This document shows positions 18,855-43,842 of a stretch of 64,000 nucleotides of DNA, piece after piece. The stretch spans positions 5,874,001 through 5,938,000 of the forward strand of contig JBAJFE010000004.1 in assembly GCA_037903355.1 (NCBI GenBank), read 5' to 3'. The notes under the pieces are model-generated. The model saw only the letters and a program-made list of their open reading frames with translations. It ran no database searches and had not been told where the DNA came from. Each line of letters opens with the position of its first letter. Position 1 is the stretch's first letter. Source of the stretch: Trichuris trichiura. Its lineage: Eukaryota; Nematoda; Enoplea; Trichinellida; Trichuridae. The translations under genes were made by a program, and so were the position numbers.

Positions 18855-19265
18855 ACAGTGGTCTTGAAAATGTGGTTTCTTGGTACGGGAGCGTATGTTT
18901 TCATAATGCAAAAGTTTTATTACGGAATTATTCCCGTTTAATGTGTTAAATAACTCCGGAGCTTTCGGGTCGACCGAGACCCGTCTTCAGCGGTTGTGAG
19001 TTATGGATGTAGCTCGTGCGCGTGACTTGAGTCTTCTGTCGTTTTCATGGTTTAAAGCGGGTACTTTAAAAGTTCTCTGCTGGTGGTTTTTCTGTTTGTA
19101 TGGTATGTGATTTGTCCGTTTTTCGCATTTTTTTCTCATGTGCGGTGATTATTTCTCCTTTCACTTGCTCCATGTGTTCTTGTATCACGTCCAATTATGG
19201 AGCAGCAGTCGTAACGCGTCACTATATTTGCCCAAATTTCACTTACATTTGCTCCTTGGTCGCGG

Positions 19266-21589
19266 TTGTATGCGAATTTGAGAGCAAACTACAACAACAC
19301 ACTCAGTTACCTCAAAAACCAACTACAGAGAGCAATTTACGAAGCCTTGGTCAGACATGTGGATGTGGCCGCAGGAACAATTTGCACGACACAGAAACAG
19401 GTATTAGAAAGGAAATTCGATACACTTCAGGCGAGTTTCCCGGTGACTTCTCTAAATGTCTACAGCAATAGCTTACAAAGGACCACTGAGTCGGAACTAA
19501 ATACAACAATAGTAAACCTCAGCTCCTCCCCTCTGAGCGAAAGTGAGAAGGCCATACTAAGAAAGGGACTGAACTTCGTTCCCACCTCTAAACGACCACC
19601 CATTCTCGATATCATTACCTCAGTTGAAGACAGCTTATCTTCGACAGACCCACAAAGAGCCAGACAGATTAAAAGCACTTTATCTACATTAATCTTAAAT
19701 GACCGCTTCAACGCCACTCCTAACTTAAGTCGGCATGAGATGAACTGCCTACATCAGCTTCGAAATCAACCGAACAGAATTATCACTAAAGCCGATAAAG
19801 GGAATAAAATAGTTCTACTAGAGAGAAACACCTACATGGAAAAAATGACAGCTATCTTAAGCACCAACAATTATGCCCCTTTACCCACTGACCCTACAGA
19901 GGCTTCCCGGAAAAATCTTCGATCTCTCCTCATCACATATGCCACAGAGACCAAAGAACCTGAAATCAGCAAAATGATAACACATCTTAAGTTTGCATCG
20001 AGCTTCAGACCCCCTGAGCTCTATGGTCTCCCAAAAGTACACAAACCAGGGAATCCAATGAGACCAATAGTCTCCACCATTAATAGTATCACAAGTGAAC
20101 TCAGTCGATACTTAGGAACGATCATCAAACCACTTACTGGTAAAGAGCCGTCCTTTATCAAAAATAGCAAAACTTTTGTCAACGAAATCCAGAGTCACTA
20201 CCTAGAACCAGATGAAATTCTGGTTAGTTATGATGTAAAAGAACTATTCCCGAGCATCCCCATATCAGATACACTCGAGATCCTATACAATCTCCTCAAT
20301 GCAGACACAAGTCTACCCACGAGAACTAAACTAAATCCCTTTCACATTGTCAAATTGGTTTCCTTTTAAATGGAAGAAGGCAATCATTTCACTTTTGATA
20401 ACAAGTACTACAAACAATCTAGCGGAGTACCTATGGGCAGCCCCTTATCTCCAGTATTAGCAGAAATATTTATGGAAAGCTTTGAAGGACAGATGTTCGC
20501 AACGGTAGACAGACACATAGCTCCACGCCTTTTCAAAAGGTACGTAGACGACATATTCGTAATTATTAAAGCTGGAAAGGAAGAGCAATTTTTACAATTC
20601 CTCAACAACATCCGCCCGAACCAAATCGTTTTCACAATGGAAAAAGAAGACAACAACACCCTACCCTTTCTAGACGCTTTAATTATTCGCACAAACGATG
20701 GGCTAAAAACCAGAGTATATAGAAAACCCAAGCACACGGATCAGTACCTCAACTTTCATCACATCACCCCAGATCAGTAATGCGTGGTATCCTCTCTAGA
20801 ATGATTGACCGAGCAATCAAATTATGCAGTCCTGAAGATCTTCAACCAGAGTTCAACTACATTCGAAAAATTTTCTGCAAGAACGGATATCCCAGGTCCT
20901 TTATTAGCCAAGTATTCAACTACAAGCTTCGCAAACGTGAATCTAGTGCAGAAAACGCTTCGCACCAGCCTTGCTTAGTTATTCCCTATGTGGCAAGCTT
21001 AGGAGAAAAAATTACCCGGCTAGGAAGAACGTTAGGTTTCAGAGTCTTCTTCAAGAGCTCCCCTAACCTCAGATCAATTCTTCGCTCGGACAAAACAAAA
21101 ATTCCAACAAACAAGAAGACAGGATTAGTATACGCAGTCGAATGCTCTTGCTCAGGAATTTATATTGGCGAAACAGGGAACACTTTAGAACATAGATTTA
21201 ATGAACATTTAAAAGAGCTTGCAAGTTACAACAATGCGAACGCCTTGCTCAATAGCAGTGGCTATGGAACTACACAAAGAGGAAGACCAATTTTAAACCC
21301 GATAATCACCATGGAAAAAGCCAAACAGGCCTCTGCTGTGGCAGAACATGCCACACAATGTAACCAAACGCTCAGCCCAAAAGTCTTATGTTATGAAAAG
21401 AACCTACGATTAAGAAGAATCAAAGAAGCCCTTTACATAAGACACAGCCACACATACAACCGCGACCAAGGAGCAGATGTAAGTGAAGTCTGGACAAATA
21501 TAGTGACGCGTTACGACTGCTACTCCATAATTGGACGTGATACAAGAACACATGGAGTAAGTGAAAGAAGAAATAATCACCGCACATGA
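19266..21589 (+). pseudogene. PLE reverse transcriptase with GIY-YIG endonuclease, two lesions
   Basis: Encodes the polymerase and nuclease for target-primed copying. Segments in order: an N-terminal helical region; ITKADKGNKIVLLERNTYM; the PLE signature YGLPKVHKPGNPMRPIVS; RT motif A SYDVKELFPSIP; SSGVPMGSPLSPVLAEIF; the catalytic box YVDDIFVII; and LPFLDALI. The GIY-YIG domain follows (VYAVECSCSGIYIGETGN), with a basic C-terminus. Two lesions break it: an in-frame TAA just before 20370 and a frameshift near 20765. The N-terminus starts at the junction with the inverted arm, so the true start is probably lost. Otherwise it is the best-preserved PLE here. Confidence 0.88.
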
Positions 21590-21729
21590 AAAAATGCCAA
21601 AAACGGACAAATTACATACCATACAAACAGAAGACCACCAACAAAGAACTTTAAAACACCCGCTTTAAACCATGAAAACGACAGAAGACTCAAGTCACGC
21701 GCACAAGTTACATCCATAACTCACAACCG

Positions 21730-21757
21730 CTGAAGACGGGTTTCGGTCGACCCGAAA
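21730..21757 (+). ncRNA. Hammerhead-like motif of the PLE terminal repeat
   Basis: CUGAAGA, extra C, GGGU...ACCC helix, then GAAA, followed by CCTCCGGAGTTA, which could form a loopless helix III. PLE hammerheads with such short helix III are thought to act as dimers. The extra C at position 10.1 is non-canonical. Confidence 0.4.
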
Positions 21758-21786
21758 CCTCCGGAGTTATTTAACACAGTGATCTT

Positions 21787-29213: not shown

Positions 29214-32200
29214 TGTTGGGATTTTGGGAGCGAGTAGGACAGCTTTTACTTGTAAGAACAGGCAACACTACTGAGAGACACACTAGAATGACCGACTGAC
29301 TAAAAGCAGGTTAGGTACTGTACGCAGAAGATAAAACGATTCCCAGGCTCCTCTCGTCGTAGGCTTCTCGTGATGGACATGCCTTGTCCTAACAATCTCC
29401 CCCTCGAAGTGATGCCTCACATGCGTTCACTTCGCTAACTGTGAGAAGCCTGTCTCGGAGCATTTTGTGCCGAAGTCCATTTAACGGCTTCGTCAGAATG
29501 TCCGCTAGGTTCCTATCACTAGGAATGTATATCAGTTCAATGGTGCCGTCTTCGATCTTTTCTCGTATGAAGTGGTACCTCATTCAAATGTGTTTAGTGC
29601 GGTTCTTGTCCATTGAATTTTTCGCATGTGCAATCGCAGCCTGATTGTCACACATCAGTTTTGTTCGTCCAAGCACCAGCTTGAGATTTCGTCCGACAGA
29701 TTCAAGGAATCCTCTAACCCAAGTTACTTCTCTTGAGCATTCGCTGACTGCCACGTACTCTGCTTCCATAGTGCTTAGCGCCGTAACTGTTTGCTTTGTG
29801 CTTCTCCAAATTATAGGCGTTCCACACAGGAGCACGACGTACCCTGTAGTACTTTTCCTAGTTTCGCTACAGGACGCCCAATCGGCATCAGCATAGGCTG
29901 TCAGTGGCTTGTATGAAGGTCGGTATACTATACCAATCTCCATAGTCTCTTTCAAGTAGCGCAGGATACGCTTGGCTGAATTCCAATGTTGCGTTGTGAA
30001 ATGGCTACAATACTGCGCCAGCTTTCCGACAGCAAAGGAAATATCTGGTCTGGTTCTCTGGGCAAAATAAAGTAGGCTGCCAATTAGCTCTTTGTAAGGC
30101 ACGTCTGCGTTAACATCTTCCGTCTCCCCCTTTTCCAGAAAGAACGGTCGCACTTCCATTGGTGTTGCGGCACCCTTTGCGTCTTGCAAGTGAAAACGCT
30201 GTAAGAGGCGTTCTATATATGCCTGCTGTGACAGTGTAACGCTTCCGTCATCACCATGACTAAATTTGACGCCGAGCAAATACGAGACCTTGCCCATGTG
30301 CTTGCATTCAAAATTACTGTTTAAGAGCTGCTTTGCCCTTTCCCTGGCTTTGTCGTTTTCTGATATGAGCAACATATCGTCGACGTAAACGCACAATACG
30401 AGACGCCCTTCATCCAACGTGAGCGTGTATACGCACGGGTCTATTTGGTTTCGTTGGAATCCTATCCCTTTCAAGCACGTATCCAGATGTTCATTCCAAC
30501 ATCGTCCACTTTGTTTCAACCCGTAGAGACTCTTCGTGAGTCGACAGTACATACCTTCTTTTCCATGTAGCAGAAACCCTTCAGGCGGTTCCATATAAAT
30601 CGTTTCATTCAGCTTTGCATGTAGGTATGCGTTTTTGACGTCGAATTGGTCAATTTTCCATTTCATGCTCACTCCAACGGCGATTAACAATCTGACGACT
30701 TCAAAGCTTGATACTGGAGAATATACATCTTCGTAATCTACTTCTTCTCGCTGTGAGTAGCCTTTGGCAACTAGACGTGCCTTGTAACGGACAATTTCTC
30801 CTGAAGCATTCGTTTTCCTTTGGAAGACCCATCTGCACTTGATTGGCTTTACGCCGTTTGGAAGCTCTTCCATTCTCCACACCTTGTGCTTACGTAGGCT
30901 TTCCATTTCTTCTTCCATTGCTTTTAGCCATTTTGCTGCTTCGGGTCCATTTACAGCGTCATGATAGGACAATGTCCCATCTTCCTCAGTGGCACACGGA
31001 CTACAAAATGGTCTGTCCACCGGAGTGAGCTCTCCACTTGGAGAGGAAGCTCTCTTTCGGCTCCTTAGCGTCATCGGGTGACTCCTTGTTTGTTCCATCC
31101 TGACATGACACTTTGAGGGTTTCTCCCTTGTGACTTCTTGACTTGGCTCTCCTGTCGTTTGGTCCTCAACACGATATGGCTCAGTGCATGGTTGAGCATT
31201 ATCCTTGATTGTTAGTCCATTCGGTAAGCAGACTCGGGGATAACTATCCGCATTTGGCCCTTCCTCCGGAAAGGCGACCTTTGAATACGTATCGTCGACA
31301 ACTGGGGGCGAGCGATCCCATGCTTTCTCGCCGATACTGTCTTCCTCGAAAACGCAATCGCGGGACTCAATGACTTCTTGTGTGCGTGCATCCAAATTCG
31401 CCACCCCTTTTCTCTCAAGGCATATCCAACCAAAGTGCCAGTGCGTGCCCTCGGCTCCAGTTTGGAACTCCTTTGCGGTTTCGGGATGTGAGTCAACACC
31501 TTACATCCGCACGCTCTCAGGTGGCGAACACTTGGTTTTCGTCTGAACCAAAGTTCGAAAGGAGTTTTCAGTTCATCGTGGCGTTTTGTCACTCGGTTTC
31601 TGATATAGGCTGCCGTATTTGTCAGTTCAGCCCACGCACCCTTTGGAAGGTTAGTACTAGACAACGTGCTCCGGACAAGGTCCATTAACGTGCGATTCAT
31701 TCGCTCCGCAACGCCGTTTTGCTACGGGGTATAGACCATGGTACGCTGATGAATAATGCCATGCGCACTACAGAAAGCTTCCCAATTTCTGGAGCAGAAT
31801 TCAAGTCCATTGTCGGTCCGGACTTTCAGCAGGTTCCTTCCAGTTTGCCGTTCGGCTAATATTTTCCACGATTTGAACTTGTTCAGCACGCAAGCTTTGC
31901 TGCTTAGAAAGAATACACTCACGTACCGCGTCGCATCGTCAATGATACAAAGCGTATATTTTGCGTTTCCCCAACTTGGTTCATCGAACGGTCCCATAAG
32001 GTCACAATGGACCAAAGCCAAAGGGACGGTTTCCCTTTTGTATTGATGGTGGGGAACTTTTTCGAATGGATGACGCGACGACTTACCCTTCAGGCAATCA
32101 TCGCAGCTCTTTGGGCTAGTTGGTCTGCAATTAAGCCCAATGACGGACTTACTTCTGACCATTCGCAGGATTCTGTCCTTGCTTACATGCATCATTCGCT

Positions 32201-33750
32201 GATGCTATAGATTCAGGTCGAGCATCTTACGTTCTGCAGTACAGTTTCTAACAACAGTCGTGTAGCTTCGGCTTGGCGATGTCTTCACGACAAACAGACG
32301 CCCACGCCTTTCGGCTTCAATCATAAGATTGTTGTCCGCATCGTAGATGTGACAACCTTTCTTGTCGAAAATTACCTTGCGGTCATTTTCTACCTTTTGG
32401 GCGACAGACAGGACTCCACTTTGGATACCTGGCACGAATATAGTGTTTTTGGCAGTAAATTCATTGAGGAGACCTTTGTTCCTGCTTAGTTTCGCCACAA
32501 CTGTGCCAACATTGGCTATCGGTAACGCTGATCCATCAGCGCTTCGAACGTGCGTGTTGGAGAAACAGTTCCTCTCCCACTTTGAGAAGTATTGCGCTTC
32601 TGGCGACATGTGATGAGTTGCCCCTGAATCAATGATCCAGGCACCTGTCAATTCTGCTGACGCTGCTCCACAAGACGCAAACAGGTTCGAATGAAACATT
32701 CGACTTTTTCTTTCCTCAGCAACACGTTTTTCTTGTTTCCAGTGGCCTTGTTTGCTCTTGCATTCCCTAGCGTAGTGTCCTTTCTTCGAGCATTTGTAGC
32801 AAGTTACATCTGCTCTTCCGGAACTTTTTGCAGCCGGCCGTGTCACAGCCGTTGCTCTGGCGGCTAAAGCGTTCGCGTTTTTGCTCGGACAATTGCTTCT
32901 TCTCTGTGACTCAGCTAGCAGTCTCTGCTTCACTGTCGCACAAGAGAATTCTGACGCTGGGAGATTGCAAATAGCAGACACAACGTTGTCCCAGTCATCC
33001 GACAGTCCACAAAGGATTGTCATCGCAATGTCATCGTCGCTTATCTTATCTCCCGTGCTCACGAGCTCCGTGACCAAATGATTCATAGTTGCCAAATAGC
33101 TGTCCAAGCTTGTATGGCTTTCCAATTTTTCGCAGTACAGCCGAGGCCTCATTGAATCACTCGAAACTTACTGTCCTTCTGTGCATAAAGCTTCTGAAGT
33201 TCTTCCCAAACTTCCTTAGGCGAAGACAAATGCTGCACATGCTGCTGCTGCTCGTCACCAATCGCTAGGCAAATTTTGGCTAGCGCTCTTCCTTGGCGGG
33301 ATTCGTACAACTGTAACTTTTCAACGGACTGTGCGTCTGGGCGATTTTCCCCTGGTCGTACCGTGGTCCAGAGGTCACATTCCATTAGCACGAGCTTCAT
33401 CTGGAAGCTCCACGTAGCGTAGTTGAGCCCGTTCAACTTCGCTATTGCTGCTGTGCCAGTGGGCACACTCGCCGCCGACATTACCATAATGACGGTTTGG
33501 TTTGAAGTCACTTACAATTGTACGTCACCTTCACTGGCGCAGAGGCGATGCTGCTGGGCCCATAACCATTGTTGGGATTTTGGGAGCGAGTAGGACAGCT
33601 TTTACTTGTAAGAACAGGCAACACTACTGAGAGACACACTACAACGACCGACTGACTAAAAGCAGGTTAGGTACTGTACGCAGAAGATAAAACGATTCTC
33701 AGGCTCCTCTCGTCGTAGGCTTCTCGTGATGGACATGCCTTGTCCTAACA
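29214..33750 (-). mobile_element. Ty1/copia LTR retrotransposon
   Basis: Direct LTRs of 181 bp (29214-29394 and 33570-33750), TGTTGGG...CTAACA, differing at about three positions. The 5-bp duplication is ATGGG (29209-29213, 33751-33755). On the minus strand the sequence after the 5' LTR is GGTTATGGGCCCAGC, complementary to the anticodon arm of initiator Met-tRNA, the half-tRNA primer site of animal copia. A polypurine tract (CGAGGGGGAGAT) precedes the 3' LTR. The low LTR divergence implies a young insertion, yet the coding region already has several lesions. It lies beside the 5' part of the Tigger fossil. Confidence 0.93.
29389..33511 (-). pseudogene. copia Gag-Pol, interrupted by stops and frameshifts
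   Basis: In order on the minus strand: Gag from 33511 (LNGLNYATWSFQMK); a shift at 33149-33152; the zinc knuckle CYKCSKKGHYAREC; protease DSGATHHM; integrase with HCDLMGPF, RTDNGLEF and GVAERMNR carrying the D,D,E triad. An in-frame TAG lies just before the last (near 31725), and a frameshift near 31400. Reverse transcriptase follows with VDYEDVYSPV and the catalytic YVDDMLLI, then RNase H (YADADWASC, STMEAEYVAVSE). A TGA near 29586 precedes the last 64 codons. At least two stops and two shifts make it non-autonomous now. Confidence 0.9.
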
Positions 33751-38914: not shown

Positions 38915-41855
38915 ATGGACTCTCAAAATCCAAATGTTGTTGCTGGACCTTCCATAGAGACATCTCCGTCATGTTCGCCGTTGCGTGCTCCCGTATTTCG
39001 ACGTTTATCATTAGGCAGTCGCGAAAATCCGCAGGACTGGCCTGATGACAGATCGCCAGCTGTTAAATGGTGCAGATGTGAAGCAGATTCTCCGTGTCCA
39101 TTAGTAGAACCAGAGATTACTTGGAGTCCTGAACAGGAGGGTAAAATCAAGGCAGCGTGAGTAAATTGGCTTTGGTATTGTAATGCAGCTGTCGTTCTAA
39201 AACTGAATTTTTGAATATCTTTGAGTATAATTATTCTTTCTTGCATTTGCTTTTCATTTTACCTGCAGGGGCTTTTATACTTGCCAAGAGCTCAAATACA
39301 AATGCAAAGTCAATTTTGTTTCTGATTTGCATTGAACATTCTTTGACGGTTACTTGGAAGCTCAGTTGCTAAACTAATCATTGTTTCATTAGGTTCCATC
39401 AAAGGTGCTGTCAGTGTCTGCTAGTCTGTTTTAAAGTTAAGAAACTACTACAGGAAATATCATTCGATCGAGTATTCGTCGTTATTGTCTGTATTTTCCA
39501 TTTGTTGGACAGACCAGTGATACCATCCCTTTACAGCAGGAGGAAAGCTTAACTGAAAAATAATGATAGCACTCTATGGCATCACGGTTTTTAAATTTTT
39601 TTCTCGACAGGAAGTGGTGATGTGAAGGAACACGCTGAGGGGAGTATGATAGATGGCAGTTTACCTGCTACTTACACAGTGTTTTGGAAAACGGCGAGTA
39701 CCTTTAATTAGATGATCGCGCGCTGTTGTGCTCTAAGGAGATTTAGTTGTTCCAGTAGAAATTTCAATCCAGTTTGCCTTTAAGTCTCTCTAGCTAAGTG
39801 GTACACATTTCGATCGTGGCAGTCATTCTTTTGCGTAGTTTCTTACTGCTTAGTATTCCGTACACTCTTCCAAATGCAAAGCGAAAGTTTCTTTTGGCGA
39901 TCATCGGTTCTCAATTGAGTTGCTGGTGCGGAACTAAGGGAGGGTCGTGGCGTGGTTGTTCGGGGGTTAGTAGAGAACCCAAGATTCGTTTCCTGTGATT
40001 ACATGGCCAAGCCATGCACGTTTGCGGCACTTCGTGAAAAGTTGCATACGGAAATCGGTCATTCTAACCTTTGTTTGCGTCAAATTGTGTGATGTCTAGA
40101 CGTGTGTTTTCATTCGATATGCCGATTTAAGGAGGTTCTACCAAGTCGTGAATTTTCGTCACGTCAGGGCCGAATGAGGTCGCTGGTAACGGGAAAATTA
40201 TCTGTTCGCTGTTCTTCTCAGGCTGCGCCCCTGCCGTGCATATAAATCCATAGTTGACGGGCACCCAGGCAGTCGCTTATCCAGGTTTTTGAATTCGCCA
40301 AAGAATTTGTTGTGCCATCACTTCGTAAGCGCGGATTGAGGACATATCGTATGCAGGGTATACGCGACAGTGGTTTTCGCTGGGAAGAACGGAACCAAGA
40401 CGGTACAGTGCCTCGGATGACCTTGCGTAGCCACAAATTTCCCACTATTCGTTACGAAAATGAGGGTGAGAGATTCATCTTGCAGTATGGCTTATCTACA
40501 GTTTCCTTATCAGCAGCACACTCAAGTCTGTTAATCCTTTTGTAATCTTGTTAAACCATGATGAATGATTGGTGAGCAAAATTATGTTTTAACCAAAGGA
40601 CAATGAACTTGGTTGGCTATTCAAAGCATCTTTGTTTTAGAGAGAATAGCAACGCATGTTCCGCGGACTGCCGATGTACTGCTGGAAAGTTTGCGTGCAG
40701 CCGTCGACTGAATCTTTCGATGCCTACTGAACTTCTAGGAAAGACTTCAGTGAATGTCACCACTGGTACAAAGACAGAATCAGTTAGGCCAGTGGCAAGG
40801 ATTTGTTATGGCGACAGTTTGTGCAGGTCGGAAGAACTTTTCATAATGTAAAAGTTTTATTACGGAAGTATTCCCGTTTAATGTGCTAAATAACTCCGGA
40901 GCTTTCAGGTCGACCGAGACCCGTCTTCCTGGAAGACGGGTCTCGGTCGACCCGAAAGCTCCGGAGTTATTTAGCACATTAAACGGGAATACTTCCGTAA
41001 TAAAACTTTTACATCATGAAAACATACGCTCCCGTACCAAGAAACCACATTTTCAGGTCGGAAGAACTATCTTTTTCTGTGAACACTTCTGAATGTTCAG
41101 AGCTGGATGTAATACCGTCTTCACTGAAAAATGAATTGATCATTGCCGAGTCTGAGCTTCACCGCGTTCCATCCAAACATGCTAGTCCTCAAAGCATCAA
41201 AACGGTTGGGCACGTTTCCTCGAATGAAGAGCTTATTGCAAACAGTTTAACGTCATCGATACATGTATCGTCTTCCTTTGTATTAGAAACGTATCAAAAC
41301 GGTTCTGGCAGTGACACTTCATGTTTTGAAGCTGTCCAACTTTCTGAGGATGAGTCTTCGAATGATCTTGCGCCTGCAGTCGTTTCTTCACTTCCTTCAA
41401 ACTTCACAGGACAAGCAGCGCTTGATACAGCCTCACATCCCCACCGAAACTCTAGGCAAACCAAACGTCGAAAAATTGTCAAAGGTGGATTAGTTGAACA
41501 ATTTCAGCATTGGACAAATCAGCAGAGTTCTCACTTAAATATTTGGCTTTATAAATTGCGCAGTATGACTGGCGAGAAGGCATCTACTAGTCCAACCACA
41601 GAATACAGACTGAAGTCTACCGTAAAGGAATTCAATTGCATACGATGCTTTTGTGACGTTCGTAATGATGACCGGACGAGCTGTGCTATAGTAATGTTCG
41701 ATGCCGATATTTTTGCTCAGTATGCTTTGAAGCTTGGTGATTCATTTGCATTTCTACTTCCGTACAACCGTGAAATAATTTTCTCAAGTAATCCATGGCC
41801 GATCGTTGTGGGCCCAATGTTTATTCAGCCCATAAAGAGTACTAGTAACAATTGA
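38915..41855 (+). CDS. SPIDR-like protein (N-terminal region), with a transposon-derived intron
   Basis: Exons 38915-39156, 40641-40826 and 41057-41855 keep one frame (phase 2 at both junctions), about 408 residues. SPIDR is a nuclear scaffold in homologous recombination. The resemblance rests on VEPEITWSPEQEG near residue 70 and on the C-terminal third, KGGLVEQF, then KEFNCIRC, SCAIVMFDADIFAQYALK, FAFLLPYNREIIFSS and PWPIVVGPMFIQPI, in the order seen in vertebrate SPIDR. It stops where vertebrate SPIDR continues for hundreds of residues, so it is short or truncated. Intron 1 (1484 nt) holds a mariner fossil. Intron 2 (230 nt) is essentially a fold-back PLE derivative; without its removal the frame ends at TAA 40849-40851. 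The identification is by memory of the family and moderate. Confidence 0.6.
39855..40180 (-). pseudogene. mariner transposase fossil in intron 1 of the SPIDR-like gene
   Basis: The minus strand reads NLTQTKVRMTDFRMQLF, then KRAWLGHVITGNESWVLY, stops, and SPKETFALHLEEC. This matches the mariner segment around the first catalytic Asp (TGDE/TCDEKW...LYDN). Here the Asp position is Asn (TGNE) and several stops follow. Only the central portion is left. Confidence 0.6.
40827..41056 (+). other. Candidate newborn intron (230 nt)
   Basis: The 5' splice site CAG|GTCGGA comes from the first target copy. The 3' splice site CATTTTCAG|G is built from the element tail plus the second target copy. Phase 2 is kept and the host codons are restored without gain or loss. 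The 3' site equals the strongest acceptors in the cyclin B gene (CATTTTCAG). The donor matches consensus only at CAG|GT and +5 G. Use in vivo is inferred. Confidence 0.65.
40839..41053. mobile_element. Fold-back Penelope derivative inside a SPIDR-like coding exon
   Basis: Inverted repeat (TAATAAAACTTTTAC / GTAAAAGTTTTATTA at the ends, CTCCGGAG core, turn near 40930) with the tail CGTACCAAGAAACCACATTTTC on the right only. The target duplication is CAGGTCGGAAGAACT at 40824-40838 and 41054-41068 (a base or two ambiguous). Both copies are in the same coding frame (RSEEL). Splicing CAG|GT (40826/40827) to TTTTCAG|GT (41056/41057) removes it exactly. The sequence matches the terminal repeat and tail of the PLE at 18866. 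Confidence 0.9.
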
Positions 41856-42210: not shown

Positions 42211-43842
42211 TCAGTTGTTGTTAATTGCTGATTGCAGCCCGGCACCGCTAGCGGAAGGCGAACCAAGGTTCGAAAGCGCAGAGCGTGCACCGGGTGAAAC
42301 CATAGTTGGCAGGTCGGTCAGCGAGTTAAGGCTGTTGTACTTGAAGTGTGTCTTCATATGCACTTTCAGATTATCCTTGCGGGAGAAAAATCGTCCACAT
42401 ACTTCACACGGAAATGGCTTGTCACCACTGTGCTGTCGCTGGTGATTACGCATTTTAGCCGCCGTGGGAAATTCACGTTTACATTTCGAACATTGGTGTA
42501 TACGTGAACCCATATGTACATGTGAGTGACCTAGAAACATTGCAGATTAAAATCCATATAACACTTTTACATGCTTAGGTTAAAAATCTTCCGTTAGAAT
42601 CAAGCCGTTTACATCCTTCTTTACTCTTGCTTTCATCAGAGAAGCAAGCATACTGCTTGTTCCGGTTTCAGTTGATATTTAGGCGTGTGTTAATGCGTTG
42701 AGATGATACAAATCTTCATAATTAAGTGCCTTTATTATGAAAACTTTTAGGCCCGTACCAAGACATCATATCTTCAATACAAATCTTGTCAGCATTAGTT
42801 TAACATGTTTCTTCGGGACTACTGAACATGAATAGCTTGAACATGTTGAAGGCAGGGAAACTATGCGTAAACCTTACTGCAATATAAGTTCCCTCCTGAC
42901 TTTCATACTGGCTTCTCAGAAACTGAAGCCTACACAGACTCATCTGGGACACCCTGTTTTGTTTTCGTTCAATCCTGATTTTAGAGCAATCGAAACTCAT
43001 TCTCGACTTCTATATGCAAAAGATGCTAGAGAATGCAAGCAACAAAATGATGGTTTGTTAAGTTCACTTCAAGGGTTTCAATGCAGAAGACAACCTACGA
43101 CTTGAACATTTAAGGCAGAGTAAGTAGAACAACCAGCAAATGAACTGTCGGGTGACGATATGTGCGTTGTTCTCCCCTACGAGCATAATATCGGGATCGA
43201 ATAAGCTCAGTTAAATAAACGTGCTGAATGGATATTTGCGACACACAAAATGATGCGGATGAACAAGAAGCACGCAAATTCACTGCGCGACTCTATAAAA
43301 ACGCAAACTTTCGCGTTGTCCGGCCGCCTCATTAACGGAGATGGCTCTTGCGTACTACTTGAATCCCCTAACTGCTTACTTATGCTTCCAAATGCCCAAT
43401 TCAAATGAATGTTGACCGATATATAAAAGTTTAGTTATGTATTGGTGAAATACAGACTGCACTGGGAGGTGATTATAAAAGAAATGATCGTTATGACAGA
43501 ATTCAATGTCAAGCAGCCCATGATTTTTAAAACCAATCTCCATAGCGGTACCTACTGCAGCAGGTACACTTTCATCCAACAACAACACGACATTTCAGCG
43601 AAATTACTCAAGAGTTTTCGAAAAACTGTGGCTGGAATTTAATCTATCACCGATCATACTCCCTGTATTTTGCTCCTTCAGGCCACTTTTGCAGGTAGCT
43701 AAAGAACCGCTTTGCTGAGAAAATATTTGAAGACTATGGTCACATAAAGACGGAACCCGGAACCCTCTGTCTTTTTAACCTCAAAACCCATCTCCTGCAC
43801 GGGTAACGTGCTGAGCTTGCTCAAAAGCATCAGCAGGCTGTG

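Follow-up and report, generated by a model that had tools for sequence, protein, structure and literature searches.

A fold-back Penelope-like insertion as a candidate newborn intron in a conserved gene of Trichuris trichiura

We found that a coding exon of a conserved Trichuris trichiura gene is split by a 215-bp fold-back element lying between two copies of a short target duplication, and that a predicted GT-AG intron running from one copy to the other could be removed without altering the encoded protein. The locus is in a window of 64,000 nt (contig JBAJFE010000004.1, positions 5,874,001 to 5,938,000), and all coordinates below are those of the window. The insertion, the duplication, the exact frame restoration, the Penelope origin of the element and the colinearity of the host protein with that of T. 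suis have each been shown by sequence analysis. Our preferred explanation of them is a single, recent, functional spliceosomal intron created by a Penelope retrotransposon, to which we assign a probability of about 0.6, a value set by a non-consensus donor and by evidence that is confined to sequence. New introns are rarely caught while the ends of their source are still intact. At this locus one can see the element, its duplication and a relative's uninterrupted protein, and the insertion is a promising, though unproven, candidate for an intron that a retroelement has only just created.

A conserved whipworm gene and its interrupted exon

The host gene lies on the plus strand. Exon 1 (38915..39156; MDSQNPN...KIKAA) ends at GC|GTGAGT and aligns with T. 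suis protein P0001 from residue 1, and the predicted ordinary intron that follows (39157..40640, +; GTGAGT...TTGTTTTAG) was placed by the gapless match of KIKAAENSN to KIKAAESSN of P0001. Exon 2 (40641..40826, +) ends TGCAG|GT, and exon 3 (41057..41855, +) continues in an open frame from an exact junction to the stop codon. These last two exons are one coding stretch, interrupted by the 215-bp element between identical 15-mers. Once the predicted intron is removed, the gene would encode 408 residues, its 408 codons being otherwise without stop or frameshift, and the predicted product aligns end to end with P0001 (407 aa) at 75% identity. The junction reads GDSLCRSEELSFSVNTSEC in the host protein and GDSLSKSQELSSSIDTSDC in P0001, with neither a gap nor an extra residue, and this gapless alignment bears out an earlier claim, made from the sequence alone, that the insertion sits in a real exon. 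At the protein level P0001 is continuous across the insertion site and carries no trace of the element, absence from orthologues being the criterion for a recent gain.

The only matches to the host protein in a protein database search were P0001 and T. muris P0002 (388 aa), with which it shares 54% identity; these orthologues point to a whipworm, and identities of 75% and 54% argue against T. suis or T. muris as the source. P0002 has a 15-residue gap relative to the other two proteins, which ends one residue before the split codon and may represent an indel or a different gene model, so the gene structure in T. muris may differ. The SPIDR-like label that the sequence-only reading had given the gene drew no support from Pfam or PDB searches, no SPIDR structure being among the PDB matches listed, which does not exclude SPIDR; similarly, a structure model of the host protein (mean pLDDT 33.9) offered nothing usable for a gene name.

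The two copies of the target sequence CAGGTCGGAAGAACT (40824..40838, +, containing the putative donor AG|GTCGGA, and 41054..41068, +, containing the putative acceptor AG) are identical at 15/15 positions; the duplication may be 13-15 bp long, because the C that opens the repeat and the T that closes it would equally be carried by the element ends. Between them lies the element itself (40839..41053, +), an inverted repeat of a dispersed family. Its arms, the left one without a tail (40838..40929, +) and the right one (40931..41022, +), are 92 nt each and 98% complementary, differing only at 40845 and 40907 (2/92), which places them among the closest pairs measured. Beyond the right arm is a 31-bp tail (41023..41053, +) that contains TACCAAG and the pyrimidine tract CATTTT(C), and whose last 18 bases, the C included, are CCAAGANNNCAYATYTTC. 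The fold-back with a 15-bp duplication described in the sequence-only reading is thereby confirmed, and the pattern is not a product of chance, given its folding z-score, the dispersal of the repeat and the gapless T. suis match. The arm difference at 40907 also creates TTTCAG|GTCGAC (40903-40912, left arm), an extra acceptor/donor look-alike inside the hairpin.

If, as we suppose, the arms were identical at birth, two differences between 92-nt arms point to a recent insertion. With an insertion so young, the open frame in the rest of the gene says little about function. Retention of the element would end the frame after RSEELFIM at the TAA at 40849..40851 (+), that is, after 150 codons, which is where the sequence-only reading had expected it to end.

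The predicted intron

The predicted intron is 230 nt long (40827..41056, +; GT...TTTTCAG). At the level of sequence, removing CAG|GTCGGA ... ACATTTTCAG|GTCG restores the original codons exactly, as had been proposed, and the locus in that respect has two features of introners, namely predicted splice sites recruited at insertion and an mRNA that splicing would restore. The predicted donor, CAG|GTCGGA, is sequence of the first target copy, whereas the predicted acceptor is of mixed origin: CATTTT belongs to the element, the C could belong to either and the AG is from the second target copy. The sequence-only reading had suggested that the tail of this Penelope group ends in a ready-made acceptor, and it was half right, as the tail does bring CATTTT(C) but the AG is target-derived and the usual junction of the family is TTTTCAAG, not TTTTCAG. 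The usual 5′ splice consensus is GTAAGT, from which GTCGGA differs at three positions, site strength being judged by eye. TACCAAG in the tail is a possible branch point.

How would such an intron have come about? We propose that exon 2 of the conserved whipworm gene was recently hit by a Penelope-like retrotransposon and that the inserted copy snapped back on itself during synthesis, which would yield an inverted repeat with a single 31-bp tail. The target would have been duplicated, and the duplicated sequence happened to contain CAG|GT. The first target copy would then supply the 5′ splice site, the tail would provide the pyrimidine tract CATTTTC, and the second target copy would contribute the AG that completes the 3′ splice site. 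If the predicted sites are used, with TACCAAG acting as branch point, the spliceosome would remove 230 nt and the protein would be unchanged.

Many GT-AG pairs keep the frame open, and among those listed it is 40827-41056 that returns the sequence of the orthologue. For instance, an intron from the element-internal donor AT|GTAAAA (40848-41056) would be in frame and add seven residues, one ending at the tail-internal acceptor ACCAAG (40827-41041) would be in frame and add five, and many longer in-frame introns would lose residues. Such pairs would permit a leaky or alternative intron, in which exact splicing, use of the internal donor, use of the tail acceptor and unspliced message are mixed. 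We consider this mixture quite unlikely, since the internal donor is within the hairpin stem of the predicted fold.

The predicted fold of the region has an energy of -166.7 kcal/mol (z -21.9, or about 22 SD better than shuffled sequences). Its long stem covers both the TAA and the internal donor and leaves 11 nt of the intron on its 5′ side and 34 nt on its 3′ side, approximately 45 nt in all. The minimum-energy fold pairs the donor bases with tail sequence, and the centroid fold places the G of the acceptor in a small local stem, so neither splice site is simply free. The 92-bp hairpin may aid splicing by covering the internal stop and the cryptic sites and by keeping all but about 45 nt of the intron within the long stem. 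If the intron is spliced, the locus would let one ask in a natural setting whether a hairpin within a brand-new intron makes it more acceptable to the spliceosome.

A broader reading is that Penelope retrotransposition is intrinsically a maker of introns: the self-primed fold-back hairpin would hide stops and cryptic sites, the tail would leave TACCAAG and a pyrimidine tract, and all that would be needed of the target duplication is AG|GT. We regard this generalization as doubtful; if true, it would mean that in a nematode spliceosomal introns can arise from a retroelement, one insertion at a time.

The element family and what it says about the locus

The fold-back element has no ORF, and it is tied by a common arm and tail to a broken long Penelope-like element elsewhere in the window (18866..21775, +, with its tail on the minus strand at the left end) that retains remnants of a reverse transcriptase (RT) and an endonuclease between the flanks ACAGTGGTCTT / ACAGTGATCTT, its flanking repeat and right limit having been read by eye. 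The long copy has inverted terminal stretches that total about 340 bp and an RVT_1 domain (Pfam, 6.5e-08). The best PDB matches of its RT were AbiK (3.4e-04) and other RTs, with telomerase only at 0.05, a branch next to telomerase being the Penelope criterion. For the endonuclease, a Pfam search of the window's own ORF gave no match. This C-terminal part, though, has 23 homologues, several of which are named GIY-YIG domain proteins of Trichuris, one with PF01541, and the Trichuris homologues also include proteins named reverse transcriptase domain; the GIY-YIG endonuclease of Penelope is therefore recognized through homologues. Inverted pLTRs and the optional tail of 30-40 bp at one end are both present. 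Rfam detected no hammerhead ribozyme in the window piece and three copies, and by eye we take CTGAAGA...GAAA, found in many copies, to resemble a hammerhead core. A Penelope-type origin, as the sequence-only reading had proposed, is supported by the RT and endonuclease remnants of the long copy and by the tail and arm that the two elements have in common. The same window also holds a tail of a related subfamily (CCCGTACCAAGACATCATATCTTC; 42752..42775, +; C9:5916752) and, at 29584-33511 (-), what appear by eye to be large pieces of a copia-type polyprotein (gag zinc knuckle, integrase, RT).

Across the genome (72.7 Mb, 62 contigs) the tail CCAAGANNNCAYATYTTC occurs exactly 215 times, and its reversed control pattern had no match. 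The tails are followed by AAG in 81 cases, AAH in 72, A and then a non-A base in 38 and a non-A base in 24; every tail carries YATYTTC, and 81/215 copies read TTCAAG and 18/215 TTCAG. We examined 112 distinct copies (identical ones merged), a non-random sample that takes in the tails on the first contigs, the full set of 18 TTCAG tails and otherwise mostly AAG tails. About 103 tails lie outside it, and from the last tail list it leaves aside 104/144 places. Target-site duplications are 11-21 bp in length, most commonly 15 bp (13/39 at the stricter score, a set of 39/112 copies that includes a few AT-repeat cases; at scores of 9-10 a duplication may reflect chance or low sequence complexity). 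Of the 48 copies whose duplication passes the looser score, 45 have inverted arms, with 31-76 nt beyond the arm on the tail side, compared with 31 bp at the host-gene element. A few copies are long (913 and 1413 bp). Arm lengths, which start at 20 bp, and arm junctions vary, and for this reason the copies resemble the products of separate self-primed insertions, which is the origin put forward for Adineta Penelope (PMC3846280), and not one spreading miniature element.

In the 48 duplication-supported copies the base after the tail is A in 45, compared with 25 at the matching place of the first target copy, and the second base is A in 39, compared with 24. The excess of A at both places suggests that many copies end TTTTCAA. 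The base that follows those two is G in 36/48, and in 31/48 of the first target copies.

Several copies are of interest for their surroundings. In L095, L097, L104, L115, L117, L121, L124 and L128 the sequence AAGACTATACAGGGTGTATA, or one almost identical to it, comes directly after the tail, in most of them with an open frame KTIQGVYG..., which implies that a second dispersed repeat also contains the tail or has become joined to it. Five others (L044, L047, L048, L049 and L050) are copies of a larger repeat in which an old CATATCTTC-subfamily tail precedes AGGTTTACTGG. L012 (C1:2711982, +; tail end at locus position 1524) is a fold-back copy flanked by a duplication of 13 bp. Some 40 bp separate its end from the downstream ATG of an ORF presumably encoding the oligosaccharyltransferase subunit DAD1, which would put this copy in a 5′ UTR or promoter. 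Also, a tail copy (L081; C9:5600674, +) seems, judged by eye, to lie within an intron of a gene for a Rab-like small GTPase (MSRYKVVLLGEGSVGKTSILMRFMENTFEAERCSTLQ|GTAAAT). As far as seen, neither L012 nor L081 splits an exon.

“Has this Penelope group acted as an introner?” The sequence-only reading had inferred that it can, because of its tail, and a strict introner family, in which many copies of the group became introns, would gain from a tail that gives every copy YATYTTC and from the TTCAAG and TTCAG counts given above. The whole-genome pattern search, host locus included, found AGGT within 14 nt of the tail end in only 12/215 tails (8/211 after one larger repeat is collapsed) and directly at the tail end in 8/215 (4/211 after collapsing). 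Five of the 12 are the copies of that larger repeat (L044, L047-L050), L039, L040, L041 and L046 have no duplication within 1.5 kb, and three (L042, L043 and L045) have one. Only one of these three, the host-gene locus, splits a demonstrated exon; L042 and L045 have a duplication but no convincing coding exon or frame. We also joined the flanks at the empty site for 37 duplication-supported copies among 62 distinct ones (duplication score at least 9, element below 1450 bp; reference, 1240 random flank positions), and the host-gene copy alone exceeded the 97.5% point (349 vs 323 codons), the next-best copy reaching 168 codons and none of the 36 other copies having a long frame across the empty site. 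Another 50 distinct copies were screened for two features alone, duplications and downstream frames. A preference for GT after TTCAG, as a sign of selection, was not seen: among independent copies in the sample GT follows in 4/14 and GA or GG in 5/14. For exact tails with exact restoration, the family thus does not show what marks an introner, introns of one family in several unrelated genes (four or more in PMC9860276). Among the 112 copies examined of the 215 exact tails, none besides the host-gene copy could be demonstrated to split an exon; the claim of an introner group was not upheld, and we rejected a strict introner family as very improbable.

The same counts bear on whether the gene was simply broken. 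A recent disabling insertion, in which the AG|GT of the repeat arose by coincidence and the insertion either is a segregating null allele or sits in a gene that this species can do without, would suit the youth of the element as judged from its 2/92 arm differences, the early stop of the unspliced frame and a donor, GTCGGA, that is not strong. It would also suit our failure to find a T. trichiura orthologue of the host gene in protein searches, though the database contains T. trichiura proteins. Against it stand the exact restoration of the reading frame, the rarity of AGGT directly at a tail end and the lack of a second copy of the last exon. The sequence-only reading had pointed to an intact gene elsewhere as an outcome that would overturn its proposal. 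A translated whole-genome search with the last-exon ORF as query found no second copy of that exon; two further matches (E ~0.001) were limited to query residues 1-39 and 1-37, and the first 13 residues of the query are tail-coded. Moreover, a disabling insertion needs luck to have AGGT, whereas a tolerated insertion requires it. For the one exon-splitting copy, the chance of AGGT is about 1 in 18 (12/215), or 1 in 26 after collapsing (8/211). Because AGGT is uncommon among the copies and expected in a copy that survives in an exon, a working intron is favoured over a disabling insertion by roughly 20:1, before weighing how often reference genomes catch young disabling insertions. We consider a disabled gene unlikely, although a serious contender, and retain a single working intron as the preferred reading.

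Comparison with known systems

Nematodes gain introns, and according to parts of a 2022 study the RNA-confirmed recent gains in Caenorhabditis are few; its authors discuss why the source sequences of new introns are not found, and its main text does not mention Trichuris (PMC9169325). We found no paper in the open-licence PMC literature that brings introner and Penelope together, while ‘Penelope-like element’ and ‘intron gain’ do co-occur within that literature. Among the matches listed for Trichuris and Penelope, the titles concern public health or epidemiology, except for one on telomerase, and no title listed in further searches came closer.

With regard to the element, its tail of 31 bp is as long as that of Adineta Penelope (31 bp) and falls within the 30-40 bp of Anolis Poseidon, as given in passages of PMC3846280 and PMC11167929. 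The Penelope-like elements of Adineta vaga (2013) share with it, in the passages concerned, inverted pLTRs of which one may carry a 31-bp tail, target-site duplications of variable length, a GIY-YIG endonuclease and palindromic junctions ascribed to self-priming, but the duplications there are 8-10 bp and the introns are host introns carried by Penelope, not Penelope-made (PMC3846280). In passages of the 2024 in vitro study of Anolis Poseidon, reverse transcription begins internally, at two neighbouring positions of the element RNA, and the authors account for the 30-40 bp tail in this way (PMC11167929); with a Poseidon-like internal start, the 3′ end of new copies would be fixed. Poseidon is described there as preferring AT-rich targets, whereas the whipworm copies often have a G two bases beyond the tail end (31/48 first target copies), and the passages of that study on which we draw make no link to introns.

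Introners with splice sites from a target duplication are known in many eukaryotes, and passages of PMC9860276 ascribe most of them to DNA transposons and note that some authors read fungal introners as RNA-based elements spreading by reverse splicing. The main text of that paper contains neither Penelope nor nematod as a word. Like the whipworm case, the introners of Gozashti et al. (2022) combine a transposable element with a duplication in an exon, with splice sites derived partly or wholly from the duplication and an mRNA that is mostly unchanged (Fig. 2B, 2E of PMC9860276, a source drawn on in part). Their families comprise at least four introns and are mostly DNA-transposon-like, with duplications of 3-9 bp in earlier families, whereas the whipworm case is one predicted intron with a 13-15 bp duplication and a target-primed retroelement as its probable source. 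If it is indeed spliced as predicted, a Penelope-type intron would be a retroelement case beside introners that are, for the most part, ascribed to DNA transposons.
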